DNA of 23,078 nt from a virus. Made by a program: the position numbers and the translations under genes. Numbering within the stretch: position 1 is the first letter of the stretch; every line of letters starts with the position of its first letter. The stretch is from positions 1 through 23,078 of the IMG/VR virus record IMGVR_UViG_3300034374_000307; one strand, 5' to 3'. Under the pieces are notes generated by a model. That model searched no databases and was not told where the DNA came from. It worked only from the letters and a program-made list of their open reading frames with translations. Of the stretch, positions 1,827-17,914 are shown one piece after another.

Positions 1827-1857
1827 TATATAATAGAAAAAAGTCGTTTTTGTTTGA
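1827..1857 (-). promoter_or_regulatory. putative phage promoter, copy 5 (TCAAAC-N15-CTATTATATA)
   Basis: On the minus strand TCAAAC (1852-1857) is followed by 15 nt and then CTATTATATA (1827-1836). TATTAT ends 5 nt before the ATG at 1824, so an RNA starting 6-7 nt downstream would begin at or beside the AUG. The site lies directly after the U tract of a terminator, as expected for a unit boundary. Confidence 0.65.
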
Positions 1858-1858
1858 T

Positions 1859-1884
1859 AAAAAAAAGAGCTACCGAAGTAGCCC
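1859..1884 (-). terminator. UUCG-tetraloop intrinsic terminator after the tail tube gene
   Basis: On the minus strand GGGCTAC - TTCG - GTAGCTC forms a 7-bp stem (1867-1884) with a stable UUCG loop, followed directly by eight T residues (1859-1866). It is 24 nt past the stop of the 192-residue gene. This is the clearest factor-independent terminator in the window. Confidence 0.85.
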
Positions 1885-1908
1885 TTTAAGAAATATGAAA
1901 AACAATGA

Positions 1909-2487
1909 TTAAGAAGTTACTATTGTTTGGTAAGTAAATCCTGCATTATCTAATGGAGTAGTAGTATAATCTTCAACAGTTAACATTGGGTTTCTTTCCA
2001 TACCATCGAAAGTCCATGTATAACCGTTCATATCCCCAAACGCTGCACCAGTTGCATTAGTACCTGCATTTAGTTCCATACCATTTTCTAATCCTAAAGC
2101 TAATAATACATTATTACCAGTAGCAGTTATTATTTCATTTAATTCCAAAAATATAACTAATCTATTAGAAGCTAATAATTTAATTTGATTTTGGTCTTCT
2201 TTTGTTAATTTGTGTAGCATTATTTCAACTGATGGAGTATAAAATACTGTACCATTCTCGCTAGAGCCTGTAATAGTTTCTGTACAAGAAGCAGTACCCC
2301 TCTTTAAAGTGTATTTATATATGTCATCAGAAGCACCCATTGTAAATGTTACTAACGAACCTACATCAGTACTTGTACCTTCAGCATAAGCAGTAACTTC
2401 ATCAAACTGTGCGAAATAAATTGCCTTTATCCCACCTACTGTATCTCTACAAGTTATATTTCTTCCTTTTGTTAAATTACAAGACAT
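1909..2487 (-). CDS. probable major tail tube protein (192 aa)
   Basis: The protein starts MSCNLTKGRNITCRDTVGGIKAIYFAQFD, a Cys-containing lead-in followed by a GGI(K)xIYxAxF element that I associate with tail tube proteins of Bacteroidota siphophages. The middle part (ASNRLVIFLELN) and ALGLENGMEL...GDMNGYTWTFDGMERNPM fit the conserved C-terminal half of that family, where the subunits stack into the tail tube. It lies between the capsid gene and a strong terminator, so it should be produced at a high level with the capsid. The family call is by pattern; a neck protein or another beta-barrel virion protein is the alternative. Confidence 0.65.
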   Translation of the reverse strand: MSCNLTKGRNITCRDTVGGIKAIYFAQFDEVTAYAEGTSTDVGSLVTFTMGASDDIYKYTLKRGTASCTETITGSSENGTVFYTPSVEIMLHKLTKEDQNQIKLLASNRLVIFLELNEIITATGNNVLLALGLENGMELNAGTNATGAAFGDMNGYTWTFDGMERNPMLTVEDYTTTPLDNAGFTYQTIVTS

Positions 2488-2508
2488 ATTATTTATTTTT
2501 AAAGTTAA

Positions 2509-2530
2509 GGAAGTAGCCGAAGCTACTCCC
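2509..2530 (-). terminator. UUCG hairpin after the capsid gene (leaky terminator or processing site)
   Basis: On the minus strand GGGAGTAGC - TTCG - GCTACTTCC forms a 9-bp stem with one G-U pair. The sequence downstream (CTTAACTTTAAAAATAA) is a poor U tract, so full termination is doubtful. It lies between the capsid and tail tube genes and could lower downstream transcription or protect the capsid mRNA 3' end. Confidence 0.55.
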
Positions 2531-2543
2531 TTTTAATCAGTTA

Positions 2544-3446
2544 TTATGATTGGTTTACAATATCAGAACCAACACCAACCTGAACACCACCTGAGAACTT
2601 AGCAACTACTCTTAAGTTATCTGAGCCGTCAAGGTCAGTCATATCTAGGGTACGGATGTTTGTATTATCTGAAAGCAAGTCTGTTCCGAAGAAAAGATTT
2701 GATTTTTCAGCAGCTACCATTACGTTATCTGCCATACCTGGACATGGTTGGATATTGATACCTTCAAATACAGGCTTGTAGTCTCCTGTCATGTTGTAAG
2801 CATTTAAGTATCCTAATGTAGAAATTGCAGAAATGTAGAATCTGTAAGTTTTCCAGTTCATGTAGATACTTAAGTCATCTCTTCCGTATACATTAGAAGG
2901 AATGTCAGCTACTAAAGTTTGTAGGTTCTCTATAATGTTTGCCTCTGTATAAGCAGCCGTAGCCGTTGAAGCTACAACTGTACCATCTACTGCAAAAGCA
3001 CCTGTAGTAGCAGTTTGGAATCCTTCAAATTGTCCTGCCGTTGCATCAGCACCTTGCCAAATAGAACCTTCTACTGCATCTGCAATAATTTCTCCAAAGT
3101 AAGATAATACATACTGGTCAAAAGTAGGTGCATTTCTATTGAAAGCCCCTGCTCTCATTTCTTCTGCCTCCCATCCTGATAGTAAAGTTTTTTTACAAAG
3201 GTCAACATTAATTTGTAGATTCTTAGGAGTTAATACTTTCTCTGTAAGTGCTAAAGTACCTGCATCAGTGAAATCACACGTCGCATCGGCTACTAAAGAA
3301 CTCCCAGCCATTTTCCTTATATTTTCTTTATATTTCACGTTTTCTAAGACAGTTAATCCTTCTAAAGATTTTGCCTCTTTTAAAGCAGCCGAAATATATT
3401 GTCCGAATGCTTTACCTGAATAATTTGATGTTACTGTAAAAGCCAT
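2544..3446 (-). CDS. major capsid protein (300 aa)
   Basis: The likely HK97-fold coat protein. It follows the protease and the acidic scaffold, the usual capsid position. The N-terminal helix-rich region contains VLENVKYKENIRKMAG, and TPKNLQINVDLCKKTLLSGWE resembles the E-loop/spine region of such coats. Later features include DQYVLSYFGEIIADAVEGSIWQG and a C-terminal FSGGVQVGVGSDIVNQS, typical of Bacteroidota phage capsids. Its codons look noticeably less AT-biased than those of its neighbours, as expected for the most abundant virion protein. The start has a very A-rich leader (AACTAAATAAATAAAAAA before ATG), the usual Bacteroidota substitute for a Shine-Dalgarno. It is 8 nt past the scaffold stop and presumably shares the scaffold promoter. 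Confidence 0.85.
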   Translation of the reverse strand: MAFTVTSNYSGKAFGQYISAALKEAKSLEGLTVLENVKYKENIRKMAGSSLVADATCDFTDAGTLALTEKVLTPKNLQINVDLCKKTLLSGWEAEEMRAGAFNRNAPTFDQYVLSYFGEIIADAVEGSIWQGADATAGQFEGFQTATTGAFAVDGTVVASTATAAYTEANIIENLQTLVADIPSNVYGRDDLSIYMNWKTYRFYISAISTLGYLNAYNMTGDYKPVFEGINIQPCPGMADNVMVAAEKSNLFFGTDLLSDNTNIRTLDMTDLDGSDNLRVVAKFSGGVQVGVGSDIVNQS

Positions 3447-3454
3447 TTTTTTAT

Positions 3455-4120
3455 TTATTTAGTTAAGTTATATAATATTCTTTCTCTTTTAGTCATTTTA
3501 GAAATATCGTTAGATGATAACTCTCTCCCTAAAGCACTAAACTTATTAATATCTACAGGGTTTGCAGCAGGTTCATTTGATAACTCTACTACTTGTGCAG
3601 ATAGTTTTTCTTTTTCTGAAGATAATTCTTCATTTGCTGACTTAAGCTCTGCTATTTCAGATTTTAAAGATTCAATCTCTGTATTAACACTGCTCATTAA
3701 ATCAACAACTATAGATTTAACCTCATCCATTAAAGCTACTTTGTCAAATTCTACTGCTTCAGTTTCTTCAACTTCTTCAATAGTATCTTCTGTAGTATCT
3801 TCGTTCATTTCTTCCTTAGAAGCCTCTTCAGTTACTTCTTCAGCAACTTCTTCTTCTACTTCATCTTCGTATAATTCAGCAACAACGCCTTCAACTTCAA
3901 CGCTGAAGCCTTGCCCATCCTCTGTACGATATTGACCTACAGGAAGTAACATAGTTGTTCCATCTTCAGTAAGAACTGATACATCCACTCCTGCTTCTAA
4001 TGAGTCAGCAGTAGAAACTATTATAGTACCATCTTCTAATTTTGCCTGAAATTCAAGGCTAACACTTTCTTCTTGAGTTTCAAGACCAAGTGCTACTAGT
4101 ATTTGTTGTTTTAAATCCAT
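3455..4120 (-). CDS. acidic coiled-coil capsid scaffold protein (221 aa)
   Basis: The protein shows three parts: a beta-rich N-terminal domain (about 1-80, with the LPVGQYRTEDGQGFSVEVEG core); a very acidic linker rich in Glu and Asp (about 83-123); and a predicted coiled coil (about 128-182, with IESLKSEIAELKSANEELSS), followed by a basic tail ending KRERILYNLTK. This arrangement, directly before the capsid gene and after the protease, is that of phage scaffolds that nucleate procapsid assembly and are later digested. Copy four of the phage promoter motif lies before it, so scaffold and capsid can be expressed apart from the protease. No enzymatic motif is seen. Confidence 0.8.
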   Translation of the reverse strand: MDLKQQILVALGLETQEESVSLEFQAKLEDGTIIVSTADSLEAGVDVSVLTEDGTTMLLPVGQYRTEDGQGFSVEVEGVVAELYEDEVEEEVAEEVTEEASKEEMNEDTTEDTIEEVEETEAVEFDKVALMDEVKSIVVDLMSSVNTEIESLKSEIAELKSANEELSSEKEKLSAQVVELSNEPAANPVDINKFSALGRELSSNDISKMTKRERILYNLTK

Positions 4121-4132
4121 TTGTCTTTTTTT

Positions 4133-4163
4133 TATATAATAGAATTAATTATTATTTGTTTGA
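4133..4163 (-). promoter_or_regulatory. putative phage promoter, copy 4 (TCAAAC-N15-CTATTATATA)
   Basis: TCAAAC (4158-4163) and CTATTATATA (4133-4142) are separated by 15 nt on the minus strand. Unlike the other copies, the ATG is 15 nt beyond TATTAT, leaving a short A-rich leader (AAAAAAAGACAA). It overlaps the last codons and stop of the protease gene and would drive scaffold and capsid. Confidence 0.65.
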
Positions 4164-4864
4164 TTTTGTAAAATCTCATTTAAAGCAGAAAGTATCTCTT
4201 CATTTGTAGGTTGCTTTTGCATTTTCTCAAATTTATTGACAAAATAGCCTTCAATACTTAATCCTTTAAGTTCTCCTTCTTTAATTTTTACCCACATATC
4301 ATCATTTTCTATTTTCATCTTAACAAACCAAGTTCCATCAGGTAAATCAAAGCCATATAATTTTGACTTATCCATATCTCCTTCTTTAATCCAACTTTCT
4401 ACTGTTAAAACACCTGATACTCTATCTTCGTGTTGATATGTAGCTTTATGATGATTATTGTGCTTTAAATATAACTCACTAGCCTGTCTTACTGTTTCTT
4501 TCGAAAAATATACATAATAATCCGAATCAGTATTAGCGTCATATCTAAATATTTGTTTATTTGGTATTAAAGCAGGGCTTACTAGCATTCTTTTTTCCTC
4601 ATCTATCTTAGCTAGTGTTAAATTATTCTTTTCTTTTCCGAAAAAAACAAAATCCTGCTCTATTGCAGGGCTAGTAACTAAGCTAATAGCGTCTATTGTT
4701 AGTTCTTCACTATCATCAGATACTACTAATTCTACTATTTTAGTGTTTTTTAGCTTTTTATAGTTATTAGCATTAGCTATTTCACACTCTTCTATAGTAT
4801 CGTACTGACATTCTCCAGTATCTCCCCACTTATATTTTCCGTTTTCACATTGTTTACAAGGCAT
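4145..4864 (-). CDS. XkdF-like prohead maturation protease (239 aa)
   Basis: The sequence matches my recollection of the XkdF-like serine protease family (Peptidase_S78_2) that trims scaffold and capsid in the procapsid. Visible landmarks are LVTSPAIEQDFVFF (about 62-75), LVSPALIPNKQIFRYD (about 94-109), a His-rich KHNNHHKATYQHED segment (about 134-147) and the GLSIEGYFVNKFEKM block (about 203-218). His in the second-last block and Ser in the last are the likely catalytic residues. The N-terminus carries an extra Cys-rich segment (Cys at 3, 6, 18 and 27, with GKYKWGDTGECQYDT) that could bind metal. It directly precedes scaffold and capsid, the canonical position, and starts at its own copy of the phage promoter. 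Confidence 0.8.
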   Translation of the reverse strand: MPCKQCENGKYKWGDTGECQYDTIEECEIANANNYKKLKNTKIVELVVSDDSEELTIDAISLVTSPAIEQDFVFFGKEKNNLTLAKIDEEKRMLVSPALIPNKQIFRYDANTDSDYYVYFSKETVRQASELYLKHNNHHKATYQHEDRVSGVLTVESWIKEGDMDKSKLYGFDLPDGTWFVKMKIENDDMWVKIKEGELKGLSIEGYFVNKFEKMQKQPTNEEILSALNEILQNQTNNN

Positions 4865-4866
4865 AA

Positions 4867-4897
4867 TATATAATAGATTTAATTAATATTCGTTTGA
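4867..4897 (-). promoter_or_regulatory. putative phage promoter, copy 3 (TCAAAC-N15-CTATTATATA)
   Basis: On the minus strand TCAAAC (4892-4897), 15 nt, CTATTATATA (4867-4876), then 5 nt from TATTAT to the protease ATG at 4864. It fills almost the whole gap after the tape measure stop (4901-4903). No terminator separates it from the upstream unit. Confidence 0.7.
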
Positions 4898-4900
4898 TTT

Positions 4901-6310
4901 TTAAATTGTAGCCCTTCTTCTAATATTAGCTAGTTTATTTTGGTTATTTGTCATATCATCAGTAACAACATAAGCCTGTACAGGTTGTGCTTCTTGTCCT
5001 CCTCCTAAAGTAAACTGTCCACTTAGCATTTCAGGTGCAGGAGTTCCTGTATCTCCAGGTGCAGCAACATTACCACCACCTCCAGGCACATCTGTTTGTA
5101 GTATTCTCTTAACATTTGCTAGTCCATTAATAATAACGGCTGCTGCCATAGGGAATTTAGCTACACTAGGCAAAGTTTTGTCTGTGAACACTGCATTAGC
5201 ACCCTCAAAAGTACTCATTATAGCACTCGCTACGGCAAGTTCTTTACTTTCTGATGCAAAATTACTCATAGCACCCATAATTGCTGAAAAATTGCTTATT
5301 TTAGCTTTTGCGACCTCCTCATCTAATTTTTTATCATTTTTACGTTTTTGGTCAAGACCTTTAAAGTAAGAATCATTTGCTTTAAACATTTTCATATTAC
5401 TTTCTTCAGCTAATCTTGGCATTTCTGTTAAAATACCCATTCTTTCTTGGTCTAATCTCTTTAGTTCTTCTAATGCTGCTATTTCTTTTGCTTCTGCTTC
5501 TCTTTTTATACCATTTATCTTGTTATTTAATTCTATTTGCTTAGTAATACTTTCTTGTTTAATATTAAAAAGGTTTATTTCCGCTTGTGCTTCTTTATCT
5601 AAATCTTCTGCTTGAGTTTTACCACCTCTCATTATATTTAGTTCCCTTTGGATTCTTAAATCTTCTTCTGCATTAGCAACTCTTTTATCTAATAATTTAT
5701 TTTCTATATCGAAAGCATCTTGTGCTGCCTTTAATCTTACCTCTTCATCTTTAGTTAAATCTTCTGCAATTAATTTTAATCTTTCTATTTCTGCTCTTTG
5801 TTTTGCAGTTTCTACATTTAAATCTCTTTGGCTATCTCTTAAATCTTGGTATGCTCGTTTTAAAGCAACTGTAGCATTAGTATCATTAACTATTTCTGTT
5901 CCTATATCTTTGAATGTTGCTTTTACATCTTCTAATGCACCTTTAGTATCTCCTTGAAATAATTTTACAATAGCGCCACCAAAAGTTGATATTCTATCTA
6001 TAATCACATTAACTGCTGCACCTACTCCTGCAAAAACTCTCTCTAAAGCTTCAGCACCTTCTTTTGTTTTATTAAACCATGTAAATAATGAACCTACTGC
6101 AATAACTAAAGCACCAATACCTGTAGACATAATCGCACCCCTAACAGTAGAGAATGATTTTACTGCTGTTGTTGCCATAGTTTGAAAGCCTCTTTTTACA
6201 TCATTAAGAGACACACCCATAACTTTAAATTCATTAGCTAATTCACTTGCCTTTTCTGTTACATCTCCTATGTTTGTTTTTACTTCTGCATTAATTATTT
6301 CTTTTGCCAT
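4901..6310 (-). CDS. tape measure protein (469 aa)
   Basis: This looks like a short tape measure protein, which sets tail length and enters the cell during DNA delivery. After an amphipathic start there is a hydrophobic segment with Gly/Ala pattern (AIMSTGIGALVIAVGSLFTW, about 59-78) and another near 87-115. A long Glu/Lys/Gln-rich helical coiled-coil region covers about 145-330, and a second hydrophobic patch (KFPMAAAVIINGLANVKRIL) comes near 390. The tail end has a Gly-rich linker and QPVQAYVVTDDMTNNQNKL, a C-terminal signature I recall from Bacteroidota phage tape measures. At roughly 1.5 angstrom per residue (established rule) this implies a tail near 70 nm. It ends the tail unit; its chaperone is unusually far away, at 13278-14047. 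Confidence 0.8.
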   Translation of the reverse strand: MAKEIINAEVKTNIGDVTEKASELANEFKVMGVSLNDVKRGFQTMATTAVKSFSTVRGAIMSTGIGALVIAVGSLFTWFNKTKEGAEALERVFAGVGAAVNVIIDRISTFGGAIVKLFQGDTKGALEDVKATFKDIGTEIVNDTNATVALKRAYQDLRDSQRDLNVETAKQRAEIERLKLIAEDLTKDEEVRLKAAQDAFDIENKLLDKRVANAEEDLRIQRELNIMRGGKTQAEDLDKEAQAEINLFNIKQESITKQIELNNKINGIKREAEAKEIAALEELKRLDQERMGILTEMPRLAEESNMKMFKANDSYFKGLDQKRKNDKKLDEEVAKAKISNFSAIMGAMSNFASESKELAVASAIMSTFEGANAVFTDKTLPSVAKFPMAAAVIINGLANVKRILQTDVPGGGGNVAAPGDTGTPAPEMLSGQFTLGGGQEAQPVQAYVVTDDMTNNQNKLANIRRRATI

Positions 6311-6312
6311 AA

Positions 6313-7158
6313 TTATATCGTTTGTGTTATTTTATTTTGCCATAATTTTACTTCAGCAGTCCATTGTATATATGTTTCTGCTAATCCTGATACGTGAACA
6401 CTAAAAGATGTAGCCGTAACATCCTTTACAGTACCAGTTAGATTTAATCCACTATGCCCATGTGGCACTACTGCATGAACGTCTACATGATAAGTAGAAG
6501 CTAATCCATTACTAAATTCTACTCCTCCTGTAAGTTTAAAATAGCCGTATTCTCCTGCCGTACCAGCTCCTATACCTGTATTAACTCCAATAACATGAGC
6601 TTCAAAACCCATAATACAATTAGCTACTTTTTGTATATATGTAGTAGGTAAATATTGAGTTAATAAAGCAATTTCTGTATCATCTTCTGTATTTCCTGAT
6701 TGTTGTATATAAGATACTTGTGCTAAACTTAAGGTAGTACCAAAACCACCACCACCCATAACCACTTCTCCCTGATTCCTAGCTTGTGCAAATGAACCCC
6801 CTATTATTGCAGAGTCATTTAACCCATTATCTACTAAATGGTTTTTACCTGAAATGAATACGTTAAGATTATTACCACTAGATGTATTATTTGTACCTAA
6901 TATAGATGTATTTTCAGTTCCTATATTAGTTGTGTTAAGTTCTCCGTTTACTATATTATAAATATTATCTGATGTATTAGTTATTTTAGTATTATAATCA
7001 AAAGCAGTACAAGTTCCTGTAGCTTCATTATAAGTATATCCATAAGCCTCACAAGTTAGTTGATTAGGCTCTACATCATTTGTACCATCAGTAAATATTA
7101 CGTTACCTATACTTGTAACATATTTTGGTTTTATTTTAAATCCTTTTTTGTATTCCAT
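6313..7158 (-). CDS. repeat-rich tail/fibre-type structural protein (281 aa)
   Basis: This is a beta-rich protein with no catalytic motif. The N-terminal part has a Cys pair (TCEAYGYTYNEATGTCTAF). Residues about 65-140 form an Asn/Thr/Gly-rich, short-period pattern (NIGTENTSILGTNNTSSG, FISGKNHLVDNG, SAIIGGSFAQARN) resembling the left-handed roll of trimeric adhesin heads or a beta-helix. The C-terminal half (about 160-281) is an ordinary beta domain. It lies between the large minor tail protein, whose stop it overlaps by one base, and the tape measure. A tail-tip or fibre role is likely from context; the exact role is unknown. Confidence 0.6.
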   Translation of the reverse strand: MEYKKGFKIKPKYVTSIGNVIFTDGTNDVEPNQLTCEAYGYTYNEATGTCTAFDYNTKITNTSDNIYNIVNGELNTTNIGTENTSILGTNNTSSGNNLNVFISGKNHLVDNGLNDSAIIGGSFAQARNQGEVVMGGGGFGTTLSLAQVSYIQQSGNTEDDTEIALLTQYLPTTYIQKVANCIMGFEAHVIGVNTGIGAGTAGEYGYFKLTGGVEFSNGLASTYHVDVHAVVPHGHSGLNLTGTVKDVTATSFSVHVSGLAETYIQWTAEVKLWQNKITQTI

Positions 7159-9980
7159 TATGGTATTAATATAAATTCTACAGTTGATAAATCTCTAGGT
7201 TTGTAATCAATTTTATTTACTCTATATAATCTGTTTTTTATCATTACTTTTTCATTAAACTGAAATGTATTAATATCAGCAGGACTTAGATTTACTTTAA
7301 TTGTCATAACTCTAGTATCTGCATTATACAACTCATTATAGTAAGGCTGCCAATATATATTGAATAAATTATTTACAGGTATAAAAGGACTTCCTACAGG
7401 ATTTATTAATTGTGATGATTCAAAATTTAAGTCGCTTGTATCTACAGTAGTAGGGCTTACTTCTGATAAATGAGTAAACTGTCCAAAATACGTTTGATTC
7501 TCACTAGATAACCCATTTTGTGCAGGTATATAATAAGAATTAGCCGATAGCTTTTTGCCATTATCAAATAATATTCTAGGTGCATTATCAAACCCTTCAA
7601 AAGCACTTTGAGTATCATTAGATGAAAATATTGCAGGTACTATAAAGTCAGGGAATCTATCAAATAATGGTTTTATAACTGTAGCAGCAAAAGGAGAAGC
7701 CGTTATTTCTTCTTCTCCAGTAAGTAATGTAAAGCCAAATAAAAGATGAGAATTGAATATTTTAGAACCATATAAAGAACCACCAGTACCATTTCTATAC
7801 AAAGTGAAAGGATAATCTTCACTATCTTCTTCATATTTAAATATTGTTTTTTTCTTTAATTCTAAAGGTGTTAATTTTATTTCAGTAGCATCTACTCTAT
7901 CTGTCCAATCATGTTTTATATTTCTATCTGCTAAACTTAGCCCTGCCGTATCTTCAAAAAATATCTTATTATACGGCTCTATGCGTATATTTCGTGTGTT
8001 GCTAGGGTCTGGCATAGAAACTAAGTTAAACATCGTAAAAAACGCTTTAACGTACTCCCACTGCCCTATCTCCCCTCGCTTTGAATTAAGCAAAGTAGAA
8101 TCTATTACAGTTGTTAATCCTACAGTTACATCTACTGTACTAGGGAAAGGTGCTACTGTACTATTATATTGTTTAAAAGTTCCTGCCGTTGTACTTCTAA
8201 ATTGAAGTTCAAATGTTTCGTTAGTATCTAAAGTAGTAAATATAACACCTGATTCTACTACGTAAACTGTAGTAGTATATGCAGTTGATGTTAAATTATA
8301 TATATCTGTTATATTACCTCCACTATCTTTTTTTACTCCCCTAAAGGTTAAGGTGTCATTTGTTATACAAGTAAATCTAACACTATACTCTATTTTATAA
8401 CCTGAATTATCTGATTGTCCTACAAACTTATAATTTACATCATCCCAGCCCATCTCATCTGAATATTCGTTATAAGATAAGTTTACATTTTTAAAAGTTG
8501 TAGCTGAAAGATAATCAGGTAGGGATTGTCCGAATCTATTATATACACCCTGTTTTGTTTCGCTAGGAACTTCACCTGTAAAGTTGAAATCCATATAAAG
8601 CTTAGTAAAATCTACATCTCCTGTGCTTAAGTTTAAGCCATCTAAAAAATCAGATGAATAAGTAAACCCAGCATCATTCATTATTTTTTTAAACAAATAT
8701 CTACAGTTTATAAAAGGTCTAAAAGCATCTTCTAATCTATTTAATACAGGCTGCCCATCTACTGCATTAGTTCCTGAAGGTGCAGTTAAACTAATATTAC
8801 CAGTCCAATCAACAAAAGGGTATTTTAGCACATCTGTATTGTTTGCACCTAAAGAAGCCTTGTAAGCAAATGAGTTTACAGGTAAAGAGTTAGTTAAAGG
8901 AAGCCCTGTTGTTTCCCAACTAGCCTTTATATTTGTTTTGTTATAATCGTGTTCTAGTTCATCTAAATCTAAATCAGATAATTTTTTATTTTCTAGTACA
9001 TCTTTTAATGCTATAGTTTCTGAATATAGATTGACATTATAGCTTATTTCTCCTTCCTTATTTACTATATCTATAAGCCTTAAAAATCCTTCAAATAAAA
9101 TATAGCCATCTTGTTTTAATATACACTTAGTTTGTACATAAGGATTAAATGTATTTTGTGCTAATACTCCATCTATTTGTGTAGAGTTCGTTATTTCAAA
9201 TATTTGTGTAAATATTCTATTGTTTCTTTTTGTAGCAGGTAAATTAAAGTCCTTAGAGTAGCTTTGTGTTTTTTCTGCTGCATTTTTAAAGTTGTCAATA
9301 GATAAGCTTAATGGTATATCTTCATCTTGATATAAGTCGCATATTACTTGCCCATCTGCTAAGTCAGTAAATACTAAAGGCGGTGTAGCACCTGCACCCC
9401 TAATTGTTATTCTTCTTACTTCTATATAATCTGCACCACTATTTTGGTAATCTAATATTAATACTTCTGATGAGTTTACTGCCGTAAAGTCAAATGTTTT
9501 ATATCCTGTAGTAGATGTTGATATAGCAGTAGCACCCCCACCTCCTAAGTTGTTACCATAACTATCATTACCTATAAATAAAAAACCACCTGTAGCAGCA
9601 TTTACTATTCTAAATTTAAGTTGATAGGTTGCTCCTACTACTAAATTGTCTATTCTTTGATATACACCACTACTAGAATTTACACCTCCTGAAGCTGCTT
9701 TAAATCTAAGCTTAGGTGCTACAGTACCTATTTTAATAGGATAATCTACATCTGCATACGAAGTACCACCAAAAGACCTAAATTTTTTCCAATTAGTTAT
9801 TGGTGCATCATTTGTTACTGCATCAAAAGCAGGGTTGCTAGTAGTAGAGCTATATCCTGTGTGGTTTTGTATAGTATTAAAGCCTACTCCATCTGCTACT
9901 AGATTAGTATTAATTACACTAGAGTTATATTGGTAAACTCCCTGATAATCCTGTGGGTATAATATTAGTTGTACACTCAT
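7158..9980 (-). CDS. large minor tail / tail-tip hub-like protein with N-terminal carbohydrate-binding-like module (940 aa)
   Basis: The protein is the largest in the window. Residues about 1-50 are a lead-in. Residues about 60-195 look like a galactose-binding/CBM-type beta sandwich (VYQRIDNLVVGATYQLKF, TTGYKTFDFTA, ADYIEVRRITIRG). The core begins near 203 with VICDLYQDEDIPLSLSIDNFKNA and SYSKDFNLPATKRNNRIF, a block I associate with tail-tip/baseplate-hub proteins of Bacteroidota phages. The remainder is beta-rich, with a final block near 900-940 (FNEKVMIKNRLYRVNKIDY). It overlaps both neighbours by one base, so it is translationally coupled to the 479-residue protein. Role in tail tip and host contact is inferred; no lytic enzyme motif was seen. 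Confidence 0.7.
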   Translation of the reverse strand: MSVQLILYPQDYQGVYQYNSSVINTNLVADGVGFNTIQNHTGYSSTTSNPAFDAVTNDAPITNWKKFRSFGGTSYADVDYPIKIGTVAPKLRFKAASGGVNSSSGVYQRIDNLVVGATYQLKFRIVNAATGGFLFIGNDSYGNNLGGGGATAISTSTTGYKTFDFTAVNSSEVLILDYQNSGADYIEVRRITIRGAGATPPLVFTDLADGQVICDLYQDEDIPLSLSIDNFKNAAEKTQSYSKDFNLPATKRNNRIFTQIFEITNSTQIDGVLAQNTFNPYVQTKCILKQDGYILFEGFLRLIDIVNKEGEISYNVNLYSETIALKDVLENKKLSDLDLDELEHDYNKTNIKASWETTGLPLTNSLPVNSFAYKASLGANNTDVLKYPFVDWTGNISLTAPSGTNAVDGQPVLNRLEDAFRPFINCRYLFKKIMNDAGFTYSSDFLDGLNLSTGDVDFTKLYMDFNFTGEVPSETKQGVYNRFGQSLPDYLSATTFKNVNLSYNEYSDEMGWDDVNYKFVGQSDNSGYKIEYSVRFTCITNDTLTFRGVKKDSGGNITDIYNLTSTAYTTTVYVVESGVIFTTLDTNETFELQFRSTTAGTFKQYNSTVAPFPSTVDVTVGLTTVIDSTLLNSKRGEIGQWEYVKAFFTMFNLVSMPDPSNTRNIRIEPYNKIFFEDTAGLSLADRNIKHDWTDRVDATEIKLTPLELKKKTIFKYEEDSEDYPFTLYRNGTGGSLYGSKIFNSHLLFGFTLLTGEEEITASPFAATVIKPLFDRFPDFIVPAIFSSNDTQSAFEGFDNAPRILFDNGKKLSANSYYIPAQNGLSSENQTYFGQFTHLSEVSPTTVDTSDLNFESSQLINPVGSPFIPVNNLFNIYWQPYYNELYNADTRVMTIKVNLSPADINTFQFNEKVMIKNRLYRVNKIDYKPRDLSTVEFILIP

Positions 9981-11934: not shown

Positions 11935-12377
11935 TATACACTAGCTACAAATATTTCTACGTCTAAATCTGCTGAAGGATTTACTTGTAAACTTCTTAAA
12001 TCAGACATAGTACCAAAGCTAGGTGTAGTACCTTCTTCTGCTAACATTACATCATCTGCTGCACATAGTATATGTGATTGTCCTGCATTAAGTAGTACTT
12101 GGTAATTCGTAGCTGCACCTACTACTGCTAGTTCTAATGAGTTAGTTTGGTCTAAATTTGTTACTCTAATATACCTAACATCCTCTTTGTCTATTTGTAC
12201 TGCTGAACCATAAGAGTTAGAATCAAAAGTTGCTAAGTGAGTAGTTTGTGCTGAAGTACAAGTTACTATTCTTTCATATACGTTATTTATACCAGTTGTT
12301 GTTACTGTATTAGTCGTGCCTCTTACTGCACCGTTTAATGTAACGCTTTCTGTTAATGTTGTTGTTAAATCTGCCAT
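11934..12377 (-). CDS. beta-rich structural protein (147 aa)
   Basis: The sequence is Thr/Val/Ala-rich throughout and predicts as a beta sandwich: TLTESVTLNGAVRGTTNTV at the start, then EDVRYIRVTNLDQTNSLELAV, YQVLLNAGQSHIL and a closing SADLDVEIFVASV. The RYIRVTNLD...L...G.S block recurs, as I remember it, in small virion proteins of environmental phages, but I cannot name a function. Its start is one base past the preceding gene's stop and its end overlaps the gp10-like start. A neck, decoration or tail-associated role is possible. Confidence 0.55.
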   Translation of the reverse strand: MADLTTTLTESVTLNGAVRGTTNTVTTTGINNVYERIVTCTSAQTTHLATFDSNSYGSAVQIDKEDVRYIRVTNLDQTNSLELAVVGAATNYQVLLNAGQSHILCAADDVMLAEEGTTPSFGTMSDLRSLQVNPSADLDVEIFVASV

Positions 12378-12378
12378 A

Positions 12379-12729
12379 TTATTTATTATCTATTTGTTTT
12401 AATTTATTTATTGCCCAATTAATTCCACTGCTCCCTCCCCAAGCATCCCACATTAGACCTCCACACCCTTCTGAGTATGGTACATCTTTATGTTGTTGGT
12501 GTCTTTTAAAACTAGCCATTCTAGCTATAGTATCTCTGCTAATAGGTTTCTTATCTGCTAATTGTGCAGACCTTGTCCAGCCTACTCTAGTACCACAGTC
12601 GCTACCATTTTCTTCTTTCCACTTTCTAGCCCTTCTAGCGTTATTAGTTGCGCTTTGTGGATAGTCTGTATAGCTTTCTAGATTAATACTAATTTCTTCT
12701 AGCTTCTCTAATATATCTTCATAGTTCAT
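12379..12729 (-). CDS. phage protein with GTRVGWTRSAQLA...WDAWGG domain (116 aa)
   Basis: Residues about 24-112 carry a recognisable recurrent phage domain: NNARRARKWKEENGSDCGTRVGWTR (read in two parts), ADKKPISRDTIARMASFKRH and GGLMWDAWGGSSGINWA. I recall the same Ala-rich helix, GxxVGxxRAxQLA, RMxSFxxRH and WDAWGG blocks, alone or fused to other proteins, in head and packaging regions of many phages and in polyvalent proteins. Its function is not established to my knowledge. The first 23 residues form an acidic helix. It sits between the tail completion gene and the 147-residue structural gene and is probably made at the same time as the tail proteins. Confidence 0.6.
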   Translation of the reverse strand: MNYEDILEKLEEISINLESYTDYPQSATNNARRARKWKEENGSDCGTRVGWTRSAQLADKKPISRDTIARMASFKRHQQHKDVPYSEGCGGLMWDAWGGSSGINWAINKLKQIDNK

Positions 12730-12787
12730 AAGTTATCTTCGGTGGTATTAGTTGTATTGTTAATTTTCCTATTTTTATTTTAAACAT
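12719..12787 (-). CDS. possible 22-residue microprotein bridging two tail genes
   Basis: An ORF starting at an ATG that overlaps the previous stop as TAATG reads MFKIKIGKLTIQLIPPKITY plus two residues. It ends 11 nt inside the next gene's start region. It fills what would otherwise be a 57-nt gap, and its coupled start and overlapping end are the spacing pattern used by real genes here. It could be a translated coupling leader or a real small protein. The length is too short for confidence. Confidence 0.4.
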   Translation of the reverse strand: MFKIKIGKLTIQLIPPKITYEL

Positions 12788-13281
12788 TATTTACCTGCAT
12801 ATACTGTTTGTTGTGGTGCTATACAAGTGTTATAATCATTCTCAATTATTATTGGTAACGTAAACACCCACCCACTTACTGAGTTGTCAAACCTTTCTGT
12901 AAACGGCTCTATAGTAATATCTCCTTCTGTAAAATATGCAGGATTTTCTCCTTCACTAGCACCTGATAAATACAGGCTTTCTCCATTTTTTAATGTACCT
13001 ATTAAATCATTACAAATACTTAAGCAATCTGATAATACTTCCTGTTCGTTGCTTTCATCAGGAAATACTAAGTCCATTACAAAGACCTGAAAGTTTAATG
13101 TCATTTGATTATTTTGTGCTACTGCATTAATTGGATTAATATGCATTAAAGGATATAGCGTATTTTTTTCTAAGTCTATTTCCCAAATATCTCCAGTTGT
13201 TACTGTCTTTATTTGATAGTGATTAGTACCTAATTGCTTTAAGGTATCTATTGTATTGTTATAATTTTTAAAGTGCGTCAT
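12787..13281 (-). CDS. probable tail terminator/completion protein (164 aa)
   Basis: Sequence landmarks are YPLMHINPINAVAQNNQMTLNFQVFVMDLV (read across 44-73), VLSDCLSICNDLI (about 82-94), FTERFDNSVSGWVFTLPIII and a C-terminal NTCIAP. I associate the YP...F.V.VMDLV...VLSD.L.I..DLI layout and the Cys-Pro ending with tail completion/terminator proteins of Bacteroidota phages. The alpha/beta pattern fits that fold. Its ATG overlaps the TGA of the frameshift-extension ORF, linking its translation to the chaperone. The assignment is by pattern and position. Confidence 0.6.
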   Translation of the reverse strand: MTHFKNYNNTIDTLKQLGTNHYQIKTVTTGDIWEIDLEKNTLYPLMHINPINAVAQNNQMTLNFQVFVMDLVFPDESNEQEVLSDCLSICNDLIGTLKNGESLYLSGASEGENPAYFTEGDITIEPFTERFDNSVSGWVFTLPIIIENDYNTCIAPQQTVYAGK

Positions 13282-13523
13282 CTACTAACTTTTTTTATTT
13301 CGTTTAAATCGACCTCATAAGTAAGCCAAGTTAAACATTCATATAAGCTTAATTTTGTTATCCTTTCTAAGTTTACTATTTCTCCATTTGTTAATCTATA
13401 CATCACTCCGAACCATCCCCACTTTTTTGCGAACTTGTCGCTTGTAGTGATTGTATCATCTGATTCGCCCGTTCCGTTAAATACAACGGCAAAATCTTCG
13501 ATAGTTCGTTCCCTAAAGTCCAA
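13278..13523 (-). CDS. -1 frameshift extension of the tail assembly chaperone (81 codons)
   Basis: This reading frame lacks a good start (TTG inside the T run) and is best read as the extension reached by -1 slippage on the heptamer T TTT TTT. The long product would be 175 residues from the 0 frame plus 81 from this frame, 256 in all. The extension contains KKWGWFGVMYRLTNGEIV and ITKLSLYECLTWLTY, resembling the W..Y...LA...V..I..L...E.L.wL.Y pattern of chaperone C-terminal domains. The TGA overlaps the ATG of the tail completion gene. If the T run were really ten bases, the fusion would be a single uninterrupted gene. Confidence 0.7.
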   Translation of the reverse strand: MDFRERTIEDFAVVFNGTGESDDTITTSDKFAKKWGWFGVMYRLTNGEIVNLERITKLSLYECLTWLTYEVDLNEIKKVSR

Positions 13524-14047
13524 AAAAAAACCAATGAACTATGTACATCTTTAGCCTTCATTTTTTTAAACTTCTCAGCTCTCATTCTAACCTCACTGCC
13601 ATTATAAGCAGTTATTGAGTAGTGTTTACCATTCTTCTCTACTATAGGTCTATAAAGAACTGCCATAATTTTTGATAAGTTTTTTTCTATTCCTGCCTGT
13701 ATGTATGTTTCTATATCTGCATACTCTCCAAGTGTTATCTCAGATAAATCAGGATGAAAGCCATACTCTACATTATCTATTTCAATTATCCTTCTTAACT
13801 TACCTTTAGCATCCTTTTGCAATTCAGCTATTTTATTTAAGATATTAGATACATCATTTATACCTAGTTCTTTAATTAACTTCTTAGGTATATCAGATAA
13901 CAAGCTTATTGTATCTAATGCCTCTTTTGACTTTGAATCACTATTCATAGTAATTAACTTAGCCCATTTTTCAAGTGTTACATCATTCCAACTATTTATA
14001 AGACTGTAAGATTTTTTCTTACCATCCTTTTCAATGTTTACTTGCAT
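13403..14047 (-). CDS. tail assembly chaperone, short form (214 aa)
   Basis: A mostly helical protein: SYSLINSWNDVTLEKWAKLI near the start, then YGFHPDLSEITLGEYADIETYI (about 95-116) and LSKIMAVLYRPIVEKNGKHY (about 124-143), a block I recall from a Bacteroidota phage family. The ORF ends WTLGNELSKILPLYL...SSQKSGDGSE. A slippery run of nine T lies at codons 173-176, and a second ORF in the -1 frame overlaps this gene's last 118 nt. This is the layout of lambda gpG/gpGT-type chaperones that coat the tape measure before tail tube assembly. It is the first gene after the terminase terminator, starting at promoter copy 2. The chaperone identity rests largely on the frameshift architecture. Confidence 0.7.
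   Translation of the reverse strand: MQVNIEKDGKKKSYSLINSWNDVTLEKWAKLITMNSDSKSKEALDTISLLSDIPKKLIKELGINDVSNILNKIAELQKDAKGKLRRIIEIDNVEYGFHPDLSEITLGEYADIETYIQAGIEKNLSKIMAVLYRPIVEKNGKHYSITAYNGSEVRMRAEKFKKMKAKDVHSSLVFFWTLGNELSKILPLYLTERANQMIQSLQATSSQKSGDGSE
13522..13530 (-). other. T9 slippery site for -1 programmed frameshift
   Basis: In the 0 frame the codons are GTT TTT TTT TGG. Re-pairing of both TTT codons one base back keeps perfect anticodon matches and leads into TTG GAC TTT AGG, the extension frame. No downstream structure was assessed. Confidence 0.65.
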
Positions 14048-14049
14048 AA

Positions 14050-14081
14050 TATATAATAGAATTATTTGTTATTTAGTTTAA
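14050..14081 (-). promoter_or_regulatory. putative phage promoter, copy 2 (TTAAAC-N16-CTATTATATA)
   Basis: Minus strand TTAAAC (14076-14081), 16 nt, CTATTATATA (14050-14059), then 5 nt from TATTAT to the chaperone ATG at 14047. Together with the terminator at 14123-14156 it resets transcription between packaging and tail genes. Confidence 0.7.
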
Positions 14082-14094
14082 AATTGTATATTTG
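14065..14094 (+). promoter_or_regulatory. possible host-type promoter facing the terminator (TTTG-N18-TATATTTG)
   Basis: On the plus strand TTTG (14065-14068), 18 nt, then TATATTTG (14087-14094) matches the Bacteroidota consensus (TTTG / TAnnTTTG). A transcript from about 14100 would end at the hairpin 14123-14156, giving an RNA near 55 nt. Such matches occur by chance in AT-rich DNA, so this is weak. Confidence 0.25.
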
Positions 14095-14122
14095 TGCCGT
14101 TTTCTTAAAGTTTTTGTTTTTC

Positions 14123-14156
14123 AAAAAGGTGTAGCTTTGCAAGGCTGCACCTTTTT
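14123..14156 (-). terminator. strong hairpin terminator after terminase large subunit
   Basis: AAAAAGGTGTAGC (14123-14135) and GCTGCACCTTTTT (14144-14156) form a 13-bp stem with one G-T pair around an 8-nt loop. It starts immediately after the TerL TAG (14157-14159). A5 and T5 flanks make it potentially active in both directions. Confidence 0.85.
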
Positions 14157-15470
14157 CTATTGTACATAATACCTTCCGTAATTACTATCTATTTCATAGT
14201 ACATTCTCATAGCTAAAGCATCTGCATAATCAGGAGACCTACCTATAATATCTTTAATAGTATCTTTAGGTATTATTTGTAGTTTATTATCCTTATCAGC
14301 ATCTTTAGTTCTTACCTGCTCTAGCTCTTCTATGATTTGATTCTTTACTGTTATATCATTACACTCTATACCTATCTGTGCTTTATTTACAAGGTCTGCT
14401 AGTTTGTAATAGCATTGTGTTTTTAAGTTCTGATAGTTTTCTCCTTTCAAAGGCTTAGAGTTATTTACAAATCCTCTGCAACGCATATAATCTTTTACAC
14501 CACCACCAACGCCATCTTCATCAACAATTATGTTATTTAGTTTAACTGCATATTGTTGTTGTAACTTCTTAATTTGCTCGACAACGTCATTTATAGCCGA
14601 TTTAAGCATACTTTGTATATATTTAATATGTAACCCTTCCCAAACTATAATAATCGTTTTATCGCTTCCAAAACGTGCTATATCGCAAGATATGTATTTT
14701 TCGCCCTCTTTTCCTGTTTGACTAAATAAATTAAGTATAGCATCATATTCTATTAAATTATCATTACTAGCATCATATTCCCAGTTACCATATAATAGTC
14801 TCTGTTTACTAAGTTCATCTAATGTTAATAATTGTGTCTTATAGTGTTTTGATATAAACTCATTATCATCTACTAAGCTTTGTATAAACTTTCTGTAAGG
14901 CTTTTGTACACCTTCTTTACTAGGCTTATAGTATTGAGTATATACCCAGTTCTTAGCAGGATTACAAGTCATAAGCAGCTTAGGTATTAAATCATACTCA
15001 TCTAATTTATAACGCATCCTAGAAGCTACTATGTTCTTAGCCTTTTCAGTTATTTGGTTTGCTTCATCTATAAAAGCTGCCGTTATTTCTAATGAACCTA
15101 AGCTATCAAAGTTTCTATCTGATGGGTATAGGAAAAGGTCTTTAAGTATTATCTCGCTACCATTATAAAATGTAACTATATTACTAGAGCCATTAAAGTT
15201 ATAATGTTTATTAGCTACTAATCCCCAAGCCTGGCATACTTCAAAAAATGTATTTAACGTAGTTTTTTTCAGGGCATCTAGTTTTGACCTGCCCATAAGA
15301 TATCTAGTCTTTGGATATTTAACACATAATAATATAAGCCAACTACAGCCTACCCATGATTTACCACCTCCTGCTGCACCTCCGAATAATATCTCTGTAG
15401 TAGTTTTATCAAATAAGTATTCAATAGCTTGTCCTTGTGTTTCTGTAAATTCAGTATCAATATTCAACAC
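14157..15470 (-). CDS. terL: terminase large subunit (437 aa)
   Basis: The DNA packaging motor, an N-terminal ATPase with a C-terminal RNase H-like nuclease. The Walker A loop GGAAGGGKS is at 30-38. Walker B is AAFIDEAN with D135 and E136. The coupling motif MTCNP is at 167-171. The nuclease domain shows YISCDIARFGSDKT (D263), IIVDEDGVGGGVKDY (D317, D319) and a final SPDYADALAM (D415, D418). The length is normal for the family. The start is probably GTG at 15470, followed at once by TTG; either overlaps the TerS end by about 14 nt and no in-frame ATG exists until residue 59. It ends the packaging unit at a strong terminator. Confidence 0.95.
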   Translation of the reverse strand: MLNIDTEFTETQGQAIEYLFDKTTTEILFGGAAGGGKSWVGCSWLILLCVKYPKTRYLMGRSKLDALKKTTLNTFFEVCQAWGLVANKHYNFNGSSNIVTFYNGSEIILKDLFLYPSDRNFDSLGSLEITAAFIDEANQITEKAKNIVASRMRYKLDEYDLIPKLLMTCNPAKNWVYTQYYKPSKEGVQKPYRKFIQSLVDDNEFISKHYKTQLLTLDELSKQRLLYGNWEYDASNDNLIEYDAILNLFSQTGKEGEKYISCDIARFGSDKTIIIVWEGLHIKYIQSMLKSAINDVVEQIKKLQQQYAVKLNNIIVDEDGVGGGVKDYMRCRGFVNNSKPLKGENYQNLKTQCYYKLADLVNKAQIGIECNDITVKNQIIEELEQVRTKDADKDNKLQIIPKDTIKDIIGRSPDYADALAMRMYYEIDSNYGRYYVQ

Positions 15471-15810
15471 CTTTTATATTTACATTTATCTTTATAGGCT
15501 CATCTCCTGATGTTAGGTCTAGTTCACTTCTTTCTATATATCCTCTTTTCTTTCCTTTAGTCTTTAAATAAAATATAGTAGCTGAAGTACTACCGTCTTT
15601 TATTTGTGTATGTAATTGGCTCTCTGCAAAATCTAAAGCAACATTTTCTATTTCTTTTACTGCCTGAGCAAACTCCTCATCTTCTTTAAGCCATTTGTAA
15701 TAAGTGCTTCTAGGTGTATCTGTTTTTTTACAGGCTACAGTTACAACACCTAAACTATTTTCTAAAGCTTGTAACATAGCTTCTTTTTTTATATGTCTAC
15801 TTTTGTTCAT
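15457..15810 (-). CDS. terS: terminase small subunit (117 aa)
   Basis: The N-terminal half is a helix-turn-helix: KKEAMLQALENSLGVVTVACKKTDTPRSTYYKWLKED (in parts, residues about 8-44), a typical DNA-recognition arrangement for the subunit that selects phage DNA for packaging. The middle EIENVALDFAESQLHTQI and SATIFYLKTKGKKRGYIER blocks are characteristic of small terminase proteins of Bacteroidota and related phages. The C-terminal end (EPIKINVNIKGVEY) is a beta tail. It overlaps TerL at its end and the glycosyltransferase at its start, so all are translated together. Confidence 0.85.
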   Translation of the reverse strand: MNKSRHIKKEAMLQALENSLGVVTVACKKTDTPRSTYYKWLKEDEEFAQAVKEIENVALDFAESQLHTQIKDGSTSATIFYLKTKGKKRGYIERSELDLTSGDEPIKINVNIKGVEY

Positions 15811-16655
15811 AATTTTTTATATTTTTCTTCTAATATTACAGGTGTAGCATTATTCCAAGTTATTCTATGATGTAACCTCATATGCTTATCACCCATTAAT
15901 GCAACTTTTACTGCTGAAGGTGTGTACATAACTGAATAAAAAGATTTAACATAAGTTCCTTTTGATAAATATATTTCTGTTAATCCACCTTCATTTGATT
16001 GTGTTACTTTTTGAGTTAGTGATAATATAGGTAAAGTAAAAAATAAATCTCCTTTTGTAGCATTTTGTACATAAGTATTTACATCTTCATTTATTCTACC
16101 TACAAAGTTAAAAGGTCTATCAGTTGAGCATAAAAAACTATTCATACATTTTCTTCTAAGTTTTGGGTTTTTAGCATAAGAATTTTCTGAACCACCTATA
16201 AAATCTCCACCCTGTGACATAGCAATAGTTTTAGCAGGAATACTTTTGTAAAAGTTTAACATTAATTCTAATACTTTATCTAAATTTCTTATTTGCTCAG
16301 GTTTATTCATATAATATAAACGATAATGAAAAGCAATATAGTCATCATCTAATACTAAAAAATATTTAATACCTATCTTTTTAGCTAAATCAAAACAAGC
16401 ATTTCTTGCATAAACAACCACCCTTTCATCATTAAAATTATCTCCTATATCAAATTTGTCTTTATAATTTTTTTTACTAAATACAATAACTTTATCTTTA
16501 TATAAGTTTTGATATGTTTCTAGTTCTTTATCATCATCTGAACATATAAAATATACTTTACCTGTATATCCTCGTTTTTTTAAAGTTTCATAGGTTATAA
16601 CTCTGTCAGACCTTCCGTAAGTTAGTATAAATATTGCAAAATCTTTATTTTTCAT
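15807..16655 (-). CDS. TET/JBP-associated glycosyltransferase-like protein (TAGT/GREB1-like GT family, 282 aa)
   Basis: A predicted GT-A-like glycosyltransferase of the TAGT type described by Iyer, Aravind and colleagues, proposed to glycosylate modified pyrimidines in phage DNA. Landmarks: IFILTYGRSDRVITYETLKKRG (8-29), YFICSDDD (35-42), VVVYARNACFDLAKKIG (79-95), the metal-binding-type acidic run VLDDDYIAFHYR (101-112), MSQGGDFIGG (146-155), a highly characteristic MNSFLCSTDRPFNFVGRINEDVNTY (171-195, in two parts), SKGTYVKSFYSVMY and a C-terminal RLHHRITWNNATPVIL. It overlaps the ParB-like gene by 11 nt and TerS by 4 nt. No TET/JBP oxygenase or hydroxymethylase is visible in this window; if the target is a hydroxymethyl base, that enzyme must lie elsewhere. 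A non-DNA acceptor is possible. Confidence 0.8.
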   Translation of the reverse strand: MKNKDFAIFILTYGRSDRVITYETLKKRGYTGKVYFICSDDDKELETYQNLYKDKVIVFSKKNYKDKFDIGDNFNDERVVVYARNACFDLAKKIGIKYFLVLDDDYIAFHYRLYYMNKPEQIRNLDKVLELMLNFYKSIPAKTIAMSQGGDFIGGSENSYAKNPKLRRKCMNSFLCSTDRPFNFVGRINEDVNTYVQNATKGDLFFTLPILSLTQKVTQSNEGGLTEIYLSKGTYVKSFYSVMYTPSAVKVALMGDKHMRLHHRITWNNATPVILEEKYKKL

Positions 16656-17373
16656 AATCTGTTATATATGATTGTTCTATTTCCTTACTTAGTTTAACAT
16701 AACCATTCTCAATAGCTTTATTAAAATCAATTATAACTAAAGCACTATCTTCCATTAACTCTTGAATTACTTTATTCGAATGAGCATAAAAATCTGCAAT
16801 ACTTTGATAGTTAAATACTGTATGCCTATATGCAGCTTTAATTAAAAATTCTTTTTCTTCTTTTTTTATATTACAAAGCTCTATCTTTTTTATTAACTCT
16901 TTTACTTTATCTTCATTGTATAGTTCTTTTTCTTTTGGCTTTTTATTTTTTGGTTCATAAGTAGGTGCTTCAATATTCTTTGTATATAATTCTTCTTCCT
17001 CTTTTACATCATCTTCATTCTGCCATACATCTAATCCCCATTCTGCTAGTTTAGTACTATCCCATTCATTAGCTAATATATCCCATTCCCACTCTCCAAA
17101 TCCTACATTATCTTTTATTATAAATTCCTGCTTTTGTTCTTTTGTTAATCCTTCTGCTATTTTTATATATACTTCTTTTAGACCTGCTTCTATACAGGCT
17201 TTGTATCTCATATTACCACCCAGTATAGTCATATCTTCATCTACTACTATTGGTCTAAGCTCTAGCATTTCAGGAAAATCCTTTATAGATTTAACAAGCT
17301 TTTTAAACTTATCATCTTTTATAATTCTTGGATTATCTTTGTTGGGTTTTAACTTATTGATTTCTAGTTTCAT
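16645..17373 (-). CDS. ParB-like nuclease-domain protein with conserved helical C-terminal region (242 aa)
   Basis: Residues 1-115 form a ParB/Srx-like domain: LKPNKDNPRIIKDDKFKKLV, LELRPIVVDEDMTILGGNMRY with the GGNxRYKA core at 52-59, then LTKEQKQEFIIKDNVGFGEWEWD and LAEWGLDVW. In phages such domains may be DNA-binding adaptors, nucleases or partners of modification enzymes. After an acidic linker comes a second conserved region: YTKNIEAPTYEPKNKKPKEKEL (130-151), EKEFLIKAAYRHTVFNYQSIADFYAHSN (173-200, in parts) and ELMEDSALVIIDFNKAIENGYVKL (205-228, in parts). From memory this second block recurs in phage ParB-like proteins, some next to glycosyltransferases. It opens the packaging unit and overlaps the TAGT gene. 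No methyltransferase domain is attached. Confidence 0.8.
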   Translation of the reverse strand: MKLEINKLKPNKDNPRIIKDDKFKKLVKSIKDFPEMLELRPIVVDEDMTILGGNMRYKACIEAGLKEVYIKIAEGLTKEQKQEFIIKDNVGFGEWEWDILANEWDSTKLAEWGLDVWQNEDDVKEEEELYTKNIEAPTYEPKNKKPKEKELYNEDKVKELIKKIELCNIKKEEKEFLIKAAYRHTVFNYQSIADFYAHSNKVIQELMEDSALVIIDFNKAIENGYVKLSKEIEQSYITDYEK

Positions 17374-17375
17374 AG

Positions 17376-17407
17376 TATATAATAGAATAAATTAATAATT
17401 AGTTTAA
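17376..17407 (-). promoter_or_regulatory. putative phage promoter, copy 1 (TTAAAC-N16-CTATTATATA)
   Basis: Minus strand TTAAAC (17402-17407), 16 nt, CTATTATATA (17376-17385), then 5 nt from TATTAT to the ParB ATG at 17373. It overlaps the end of the zinc-ribbon gene. This marks the apparent switch from replication to packaging genes. Confidence 0.7.
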
Positions 17408-17707: not shown

Positions 17708-17914
17708 ATTTAGTTTTAAATCATCTAACTCAAACTCCAAATGTGCAATAGCTTTCTTTATACATTCTTCAGGTCTATTATGCTTAAAATTTGCCCTCAA
17801 AAGATAAGTTACTGCGTTTCCCACATTGTAAGAAAGTTCCCAATCAGATACAACTTTCCTAGCCTCGTATTTATAATTCTTTCCTATATAATAGTCAGGT
17901 ATTCTTTTATCCAT
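17696..17914 (-). CDS. DUF3310 family protein (72 aa)
   Basis: The short sequence matches the DUF3310 pattern known from many phages: PDYYIGKNYKYEARKVVSDWEL, then YNVGNAVTYLLRANFKHNRPEE and KKAIAHLEFEL. The conserved GNAVxYLLRAxxK and KAxxxLxxEL blocks are all present. The family is short and helical and sometimes fused or adjacent to nucleotide metabolism genes, but its biochemical role is not firmly known. It overlaps the preceding Cys-rich gene by 8 nt and belongs to the early operon. Confidence 0.8.
   Translation of the reverse strand: MDKRIPDYYIGKNYKYEARKVVSDWELSYNVGNAVTYLLRANFKHNRPEECIKKAIAHLEFELDDLKLNKGE

Follow-up and report, generated by a model that had tools for sequence, protein, structure and literature searches.

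The 23,078-base IMG/VR virus record IMGVR_UViG_3300034374_000307 (hereafter the window, i.e. the whole stretch of DNA that was analysed) carries on its minus strand five copies, here called P1 to P5, of a two-part element composed of TYAAAY, 16-17 nt and TATTAT, which has the geometry of a sigma-70-like promoter. We propose, with a probability of roughly 0.86, that P1-P5 are the late promoters of a tailed phage infecting Bacteroidota, read by a phage-encoded sigma factor together with the host polymerase. An earlier note on this DNA, made from its letters, had favoured a phage-specific late promoter family, and this proved to be by far the best reading: the sites stand at orthologues of late genes, in the sense orientation only, with a fixed distance between the -35 and -10 elements and a variable distance to the ATG, early genes have promoters of the host type, and the -10 element changes genome-wide with the phage sigma.

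Five two-part sites in the window

All five sites were recovered, and direct reading established that the 10-mer CTATTATATA is the same in each of them; it is preceded by TAAAC-N16 at 17376 and 14050, and by CAAAC-N15 at 4867, 4133 and 1827. In a first-order Markov model of the window, with both strands considered, 0.004 occurrences of the two-part pattern are expected against the five seen, and the 10-mer alone occurs seven times against 0.68 expected. A regularity absent from the earlier note is that at four of the five sites exactly 2 nt separate the 10-mer from an ATG, against 12 nt at 4133. As the note had stated, the motif is unlike the Bacteroidota promoter, and the TAnnTTTG box is absent from all five sites as read directly.

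P1 (17376..17407, minus) comprises TTAAAC (17402-17407), 16 nt and the 10-mer (17376-17385), placed 2 nt before the ATG of a ParB-like gene (16645..17373, minus; phrog_620, PF02195). P2 (14050..14081, minus), also with TTAAAC and a 16-nt spacer, ends 2 nt before the ATG of a 214-aa gene directly after terL (13403..14047, minus; phrog_32199, a family without assigned function). The remaining three sites have TCAAAC and a 15-nt spacer: P3 (4867..4897, minus) lies 2 nt before the ATG of a protease gene (4145..4864, minus; PF14550 Peptidase_S78_2), P4 (4133..4163, minus) has its TCAAAC within the 3' end of the protease open reading frame and lies 12 nt before the ATG of a scaffold-like gene (3455..4120, minus), and P5 (1827..1857, minus) lies 2 nt before the ATG of a 158-aa gene (1348..1824, minus) that matches no family and has P5 at all its orthologues. 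The product of the P4-led gene is a putative scaffold, with coiled-coil-type Pfam matches that are all under the cut-off and a position directly before a phrog_11320 gene. The claim that each site opens a gene block holds for P1, P2 and P5, the last of which follows an intrinsic terminator (1864..1887, minus; 10-bp stem, 4-nt loop, T run) whose T-tail enters the P5 -35 element; P3 and P4 are internal to one co-directional late region.

Two further copies of the 10-mer were considered and rejected as promoters, both being coding sequence without a -35 element. The one at 17885-17894 (minus), which does lack the AAAC partner as had been noted, encodes ...DYYIG... in a DUF3310-like gene and is conserved in relatives at the protein level, and the one at 8536 (plus), which had been overlooked, is antisense and likewise partnerless. 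Also rejected was a weak candidate for a sixth site, ATATTATATA at 3469-3478 with TAAAAT at 16 nt, ahead of the phrog_11320 (capsid-like) gene, since it falls within the coding end of the gene before it and only 7 of 21 relatives keep it.

Conservation of the element in related phages

The terL product of the window shows 56% identity with that of Flavobacterium phage 11b and 52% with that of Cellulophaga phage phi10:1. Among related contigs the terminase was found in 280, a capsid-region gene in 32 and the sigma-like gene in 376, and the element recurs in hundreds of these IMG/VR contigs, always on the sense strand and ahead of the same five genes. Motif counts were made in the terL relatives (80 loci, 909 kb), where loci are not to be read as independent events; one collection-wide pattern search used a spacer range that excluded P2, so that its per-genome counts are one too low. 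The pattern [CT]AAAC-N15/16-CTATTATATA occurs 65 times in the sense orientation and never in antisense, and with a wider -35 element, T[TCA]AAA[CT], there are 129 unique sense sites near an ATG and no antisense site with both elements. Of 159 sites, 156 have a spacer of 15 or 16 nt. Sorted by the downstream gene, the sites belong mostly to orthologues of the five genes of the window, at protein identities down to 46%. The scan of relatives suggested in the earlier note, for which matches scattered without regard to gene starts would have spoken against promoters, thus gave matches at gene starts.

The same picture emerged when orthologous genes were collected first and their unique upstream regions were examined with up to two mismatches allowed in the -10 element: the element was present at P1 in 42 of 48 regions, at P2 in 61 of 62, and at P3, P4 and P5 in all (18/18, 25/25 and 16/16, respectively). 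A site was also present, with up to two mismatches in the 10-mer, in 150 of 150 loci whose sequence includes the sigma gene and extends 5 kb or more beyond it in the downstream direction. In the contig G008 (IMGVR_UViG_3300035224_000007; 30,485 bp), which is filed under linear records and is probably a complete genome because a 127-bp direct repeat is common to both its ends, the element matches at late genes only. The shared element thus precedes late genes and not early ones, 'late' being judged from structural gene content. Neither the two-part motif nor a sigma homologue was detected in the cultured relatives examined, Flavobacterium phage 11b, Cellulophaga phi10:1 and Polaribacter P12002L, and hence no isolate of the lineage was found.

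Between the window and the relatives L038, L041 and L128, P1 is constant and the gene downstream of it varies: it is the ParB-like gene, a gene with a longer leader, or one for an MNKNEII... protein, as though cargo were exchanged behind a fixed late promoter.

Host-type promoters of early genes

Upstream of the sigma gene, in intergenic positions before an ATG, host-type promoters of the form TTG-N17-21-TAHHTTTG were found 37 times in the sense and never in the antisense orientation; an example is TTGTTAATATAAAAGTTAATTAGTATATTTG, which lies 26 nt upstream of an early G008 gene. Their presence at early genes supports both a Bacteroidota host and a division of labour between early and late promoters.

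A promoter of the same type, TTG-N18-TATATTTG (14066-14094, plus), is directed away from P2 on the antisense strand, overlapping the P2 -35 element and spacer, and a hairpin with a T-run (14123-14156, plus) follows about 25 nt beyond it. Of 115 unique P2 upstream regions, 85 contain the antisense box, which in most cases keeps a constant distance of 7-8 nt to the -35 element, and a T-run is present in 44 of 57 predicted antisense transcripts. This promoter could give rise to an early antisense RNA of about 55 nt, or it could hold P2 shut early in infection; no Rfam family scored above its gathering threshold for the predicted transcript.

A predicted phage-encoded sigma factor and its joint change with the promoters

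The proposed reader of P1-P5 is encoded at 18298..18852 (minus), in the run of early/middle genes upstream of P1. Its 184-aa product is predicted from sequence and modelled structure to be a sigma-70 family protein of the extracytoplasmic function (ECF) type with regions 2 and 4. The TIGR02937 (sigma70-ECF) profile was matched by all 24 diverse homologues (best 5e-12) and covers residues 8-181 of the window copy; against a curated cut-off of 42.9 bits, the window copy scores 29.9, that of L316 42.7 and a relative in contig C4 of G001 50.7, i.e. above the cut-off. Most of the 24 homologues also match sigma region 4 in Pfam weakly. An AlphaFold model (mean predicted local distance difference test score, pLDDT, 77) shows two loosely placed domains, and a Foldseek search of the PDB with it gave sigma factors as top matches, led by the M. 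tuberculosis ECF sigma L (E 7e-4, probability 1.0, template modelling (TM) score 0.35), where the low TM score is explained by the loose placement of the domains. A sequence search of solved structures returned a weak sigma-28 match only, and no PHROGs family matched the protein.

In some lineages both this protein and the promoters have changed. Members of the L078 clade have ACATTATATA at P2 and P3. Three whole contigs of this clade (G017, G018 and G021) lack CTATTATATA and contain five copies of ACATTATATA each, every one of them on the late strand, and a fourth (G019) contains five ACATTATATA and one CTATTATATA; wherever the downstream gene could be assigned, the ACATTATATA sites are P1-P5. 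In the related contigs G023 and G024, by comparison, the late strand has CTATTATATA four and five times, respectively. In the sigma of the L078 clade we found S74C, S77N and Y87N, at positions invariant in the 192 other unique sequences, and R76N, at a position occupied by R in 188 of those 192. Tyrosine at position 76 is found in L379/L388 and in L045/L047, of which the L388 contig has five ACATTATATA, and L045 and L047/L048 have ATATTATATA at P2. In loci with both a sigma gene and P2, CT accompanies R76 in 67 of 68 cases, the sole exception (L043) being a misplaced call on CTATATATA, and A accompanies residues other than R76 in 5 of 5. On the sigma tree L045/L047 are placed far from the other non-R76 rows, so that the change must have arisen separately at least twice.

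Sigma and promoter specificity thus appear to be linked in these sequences, with residue 76 covarying with the first -10 base and all promoters switching in concert. According to the AlphaFold model and a by-eye alignment anchored at the shared EEAVQE motif, the helix corresponding to regions 2.3-2.4 precedes residue 76, which is no proof of DNA contact. An assignment of this residue to the ECF specificity loop L3 was dropped, as the same alignment puts it just past the region 2.4 helix.

Distance to the ATG and a possible mode of action

The gap between TATTAT and the ATG is 5 nt at P1 (39 of 42) and at P3 (18 of 18). At P2 it measures 5-10 nt and at P4 15-19 nt, and the P5 sites have gaps of 5, 8 or 17-18 nt. 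TATTAT begins 11 nt before the ATG at P1, P2, P3 and part of P5, which is the arrangement known from TA-led leaderless bacterial genes, for which the marker is a -10-like TANNNT located some 12 bp ahead of the start codon (PMC3160421). As the -10 element mostly ends 5 nt before the ATG at P1, P2, P3 and about half of P5, transcripts from these sites would be leaderless. We infer leaders of about 10-13 nt for P4 and the remaining P5 sites.

In the course of infection, the host sigma would read the early genes, including that of the phage sigma, from ordinary host-type promoters. The host RNA polymerase would then be directed by the phage sigma (18298-18852) to TYAAAY as the -35 and TATTATAT as the -10 element across a 16-17 bp spacer, so that the sigma, once made, would activate the late genes through P1-P5, those for packaging, tail and head among them. 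Transcription would start on or next to the A of the ATG at P1, P2, P3 and about half of P5, giving leaderless mRNA, and slightly further upstream at P4 and the other P5 sites.

Alternative explanations

The most serious alternative, which we regard as unlikely, is that the late promoters are read by a host sigma, primary or ECF, or by the host holoenzyme with a different phage activator, and that the sigma-like protein is otherwise employed. Flavobacteria do have several ECF sigmas (PMC9723704), covariation with the promoters was scored for the sigma alone among the phage proteins, and the L078 clade is divergent overall. However, the motif is neither the host TAnnTTTG nor the reported CGT-box ECF motif (PMC9723704), the changed sigma residues adjoin the helix aligning with regions 2.3-2.4, and all promoters have changed in concert within single phage lineages, which implies that the phage itself carries the reader, as one encoded outside it would not easily account for the covariation. 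That the sites are instead operators of a phage transcriptional regulator seems very improbable. A conserved bipartite site before several operons would look alike in either case, but a 16-17 bp spacer between -35-like and -10-like halves and the absence of dyad symmetry are not what an operator would suggest; the gap between site and ATG is too small for another promoter, and a sense host-type box is absent upstream of P3 and P5 and found at few of the others. The smallest chance is given to a translation-initiation signal or another conserved 5' mRNA element, an idea prompted by the element ending 2 nt before the ATG at most sites and by the A-rich, non-Shine-Dalgarno initiation signals of Bacteroidota (PMC6847099). 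The distance to the ATG ranges from 0 to 16 nt and more while that between the halves is fixed, and among P5 orthologues the ATG has shifted by 12-13 nt with the promoter sequence unchanged, which together argue against a ribosome-binding element; moreover, the element is missing from most phage genes, and P5 abuts a terminator.

Several points nevertheless weigh against late promoters read by a phage sigma. The case is built on sequence. The window sigma is divergent, its 29.9 bits falling well short of the TIGR02937 cut-off and its Pfam matches being under theirs. The covariation pattern is strong but the events are few, since the promoter switches that count as independent number only two or three, the branch of the L078 clade is long, and a few R76 genomes (L363, L022) have a P1 or P3 that begins with A. 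A 5-nt discriminator is at the short end of the range for sigma-70 family promoters. Finally, leaderless mRNAs are uncommon in Flavobacterium hosts: they make up just 5.5% of the mapped mRNAs of Flavobacterium psychrophilum (PMC9723704), and 87% of the predicted leaders of F. johnsoniae exceed 10 nt (PMC6847099), so that leaderless late mRNAs would be a peculiarity of the phage.

Comparison with known systems

A close parallel is Salmonella phage 7-11, in which the ECF-like sigma SaPh711_gp47 directs the host core polymerase to bipartite late promoters GTAAtg-16-aCTA, and early genes are served by the host primary sigma (PMC8948821). The likeness extends to an ECF-like phage sigma (here predicted from sequence), bipartite late promoters and early genes under the host sigma, whereas the sequences of the elements, the host phylum and the phage family differ; a profile comparison of gp47 with the present sigma family gave a weak similarity in region 4 only (E 0.0045, probability 7.7%), and leaderless starts are unmentioned in the account of 7-11 (PMC8948821). 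Phage phiEco32 also combines host promoters for its early genes with its own class of middle/late promoters, read by the ECF-like sigma gp36, but these have a single element, tAATGTAtA, as against the two parts found here, and gp36 is without region-4 homology (PMC8948821). Although gp36 is a proven sigma, it too falls under the TIGR02937 cut-off, at 23.3 bits, and profile comparison found no usable similarity between it and the present family. Both gp36 and gp47 are annotated as ECF sigma factors.

In phiKZ, late promoters consist of TATG with the G as the start point, and phage transcripts are 'often leaderless' (PMC5312081). A late phage promoter right at the transcript start would be common to both, but its reader in phiKZ is a multisubunit RNA polymerase of the phage and not a sigma with the host polymerase. 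The TA-led leaderless genes differ in being a class defined in cellular genomes on host promoters (PMC3160421). The promoter of the Bacteroidota primary sigma (-33 TTTG / -7 TAnnTTTG) is used by this phage group for its early genes, whereas P1-P5 are without TAnnTTTG and have TATTATAT as the -10 and TYAAAY as the -35 element. The T4-type late promoter (gp55) consists of a -10 element only, without a -35, in contrast to P1-P5 with their conserved TYAAAY at fixed spacing. A phage sigma with promoters of its own is therefore a kind of system already known from gp36 and gp47, and what is new here is the class of sequence, the phylum of the host, the placement expected to give leaderless mRNA, and the switches made in concert in nature. 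In the literature searched, we found no late promoter class described for Bacteroidota phages.

Other genes and records

The P2-led gene (13403-14047) overlaps an 81-aa frame (13278-13523, minus) that is conserved too (73 loci), and the two look like a frameshifting pair of tail-assembly chaperones. Between the ParB-like gene and the small terminase, a gene at 15807-16655 (minus) matches phrog_842 (beta-glucosyl-HMC-alpha-glucosyltransferase; E 6e-72); it is present in only 21 of about 83 related loci, and a role of its product in DNA modification is possible. Two public and evidently misbinned metagenome-assembled genomes, L194 (PAPR01000004.1) and L195 (PBGL02000003.1), labelled Pseudooceanicola and Euryarchaeota, hold contigs of this phage group.

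Implications

Taken more broadly, we lean towards the view that these phages form a widespread uncultured marine lineage on Bacteroidota with its own sigma and mostly leaderless late mRNAs, in which the specificities of sigma and late promoters have switched together at least twice in nature, with residue 76 tracking the first -10 base, and that they document, in nature, how promoters and sigma have been rewired. Little work has been done on temporal control in phages of Bacteroidota, and the present case offers a testable sigma-promoter pair, which, being unlike the unusual TAnnTTTG promoters of the host, is a possible genetic tool in Bacteroidota. The leaderless starts, if true, would show how phage translation begins in a phylum that lacks Shine-Dalgarno signals. 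How a regulator and all of its sites change together is a long-standing question, and natural relatives in which a sigma has switched in concert with its entire small regulon allow it to be tested directly.

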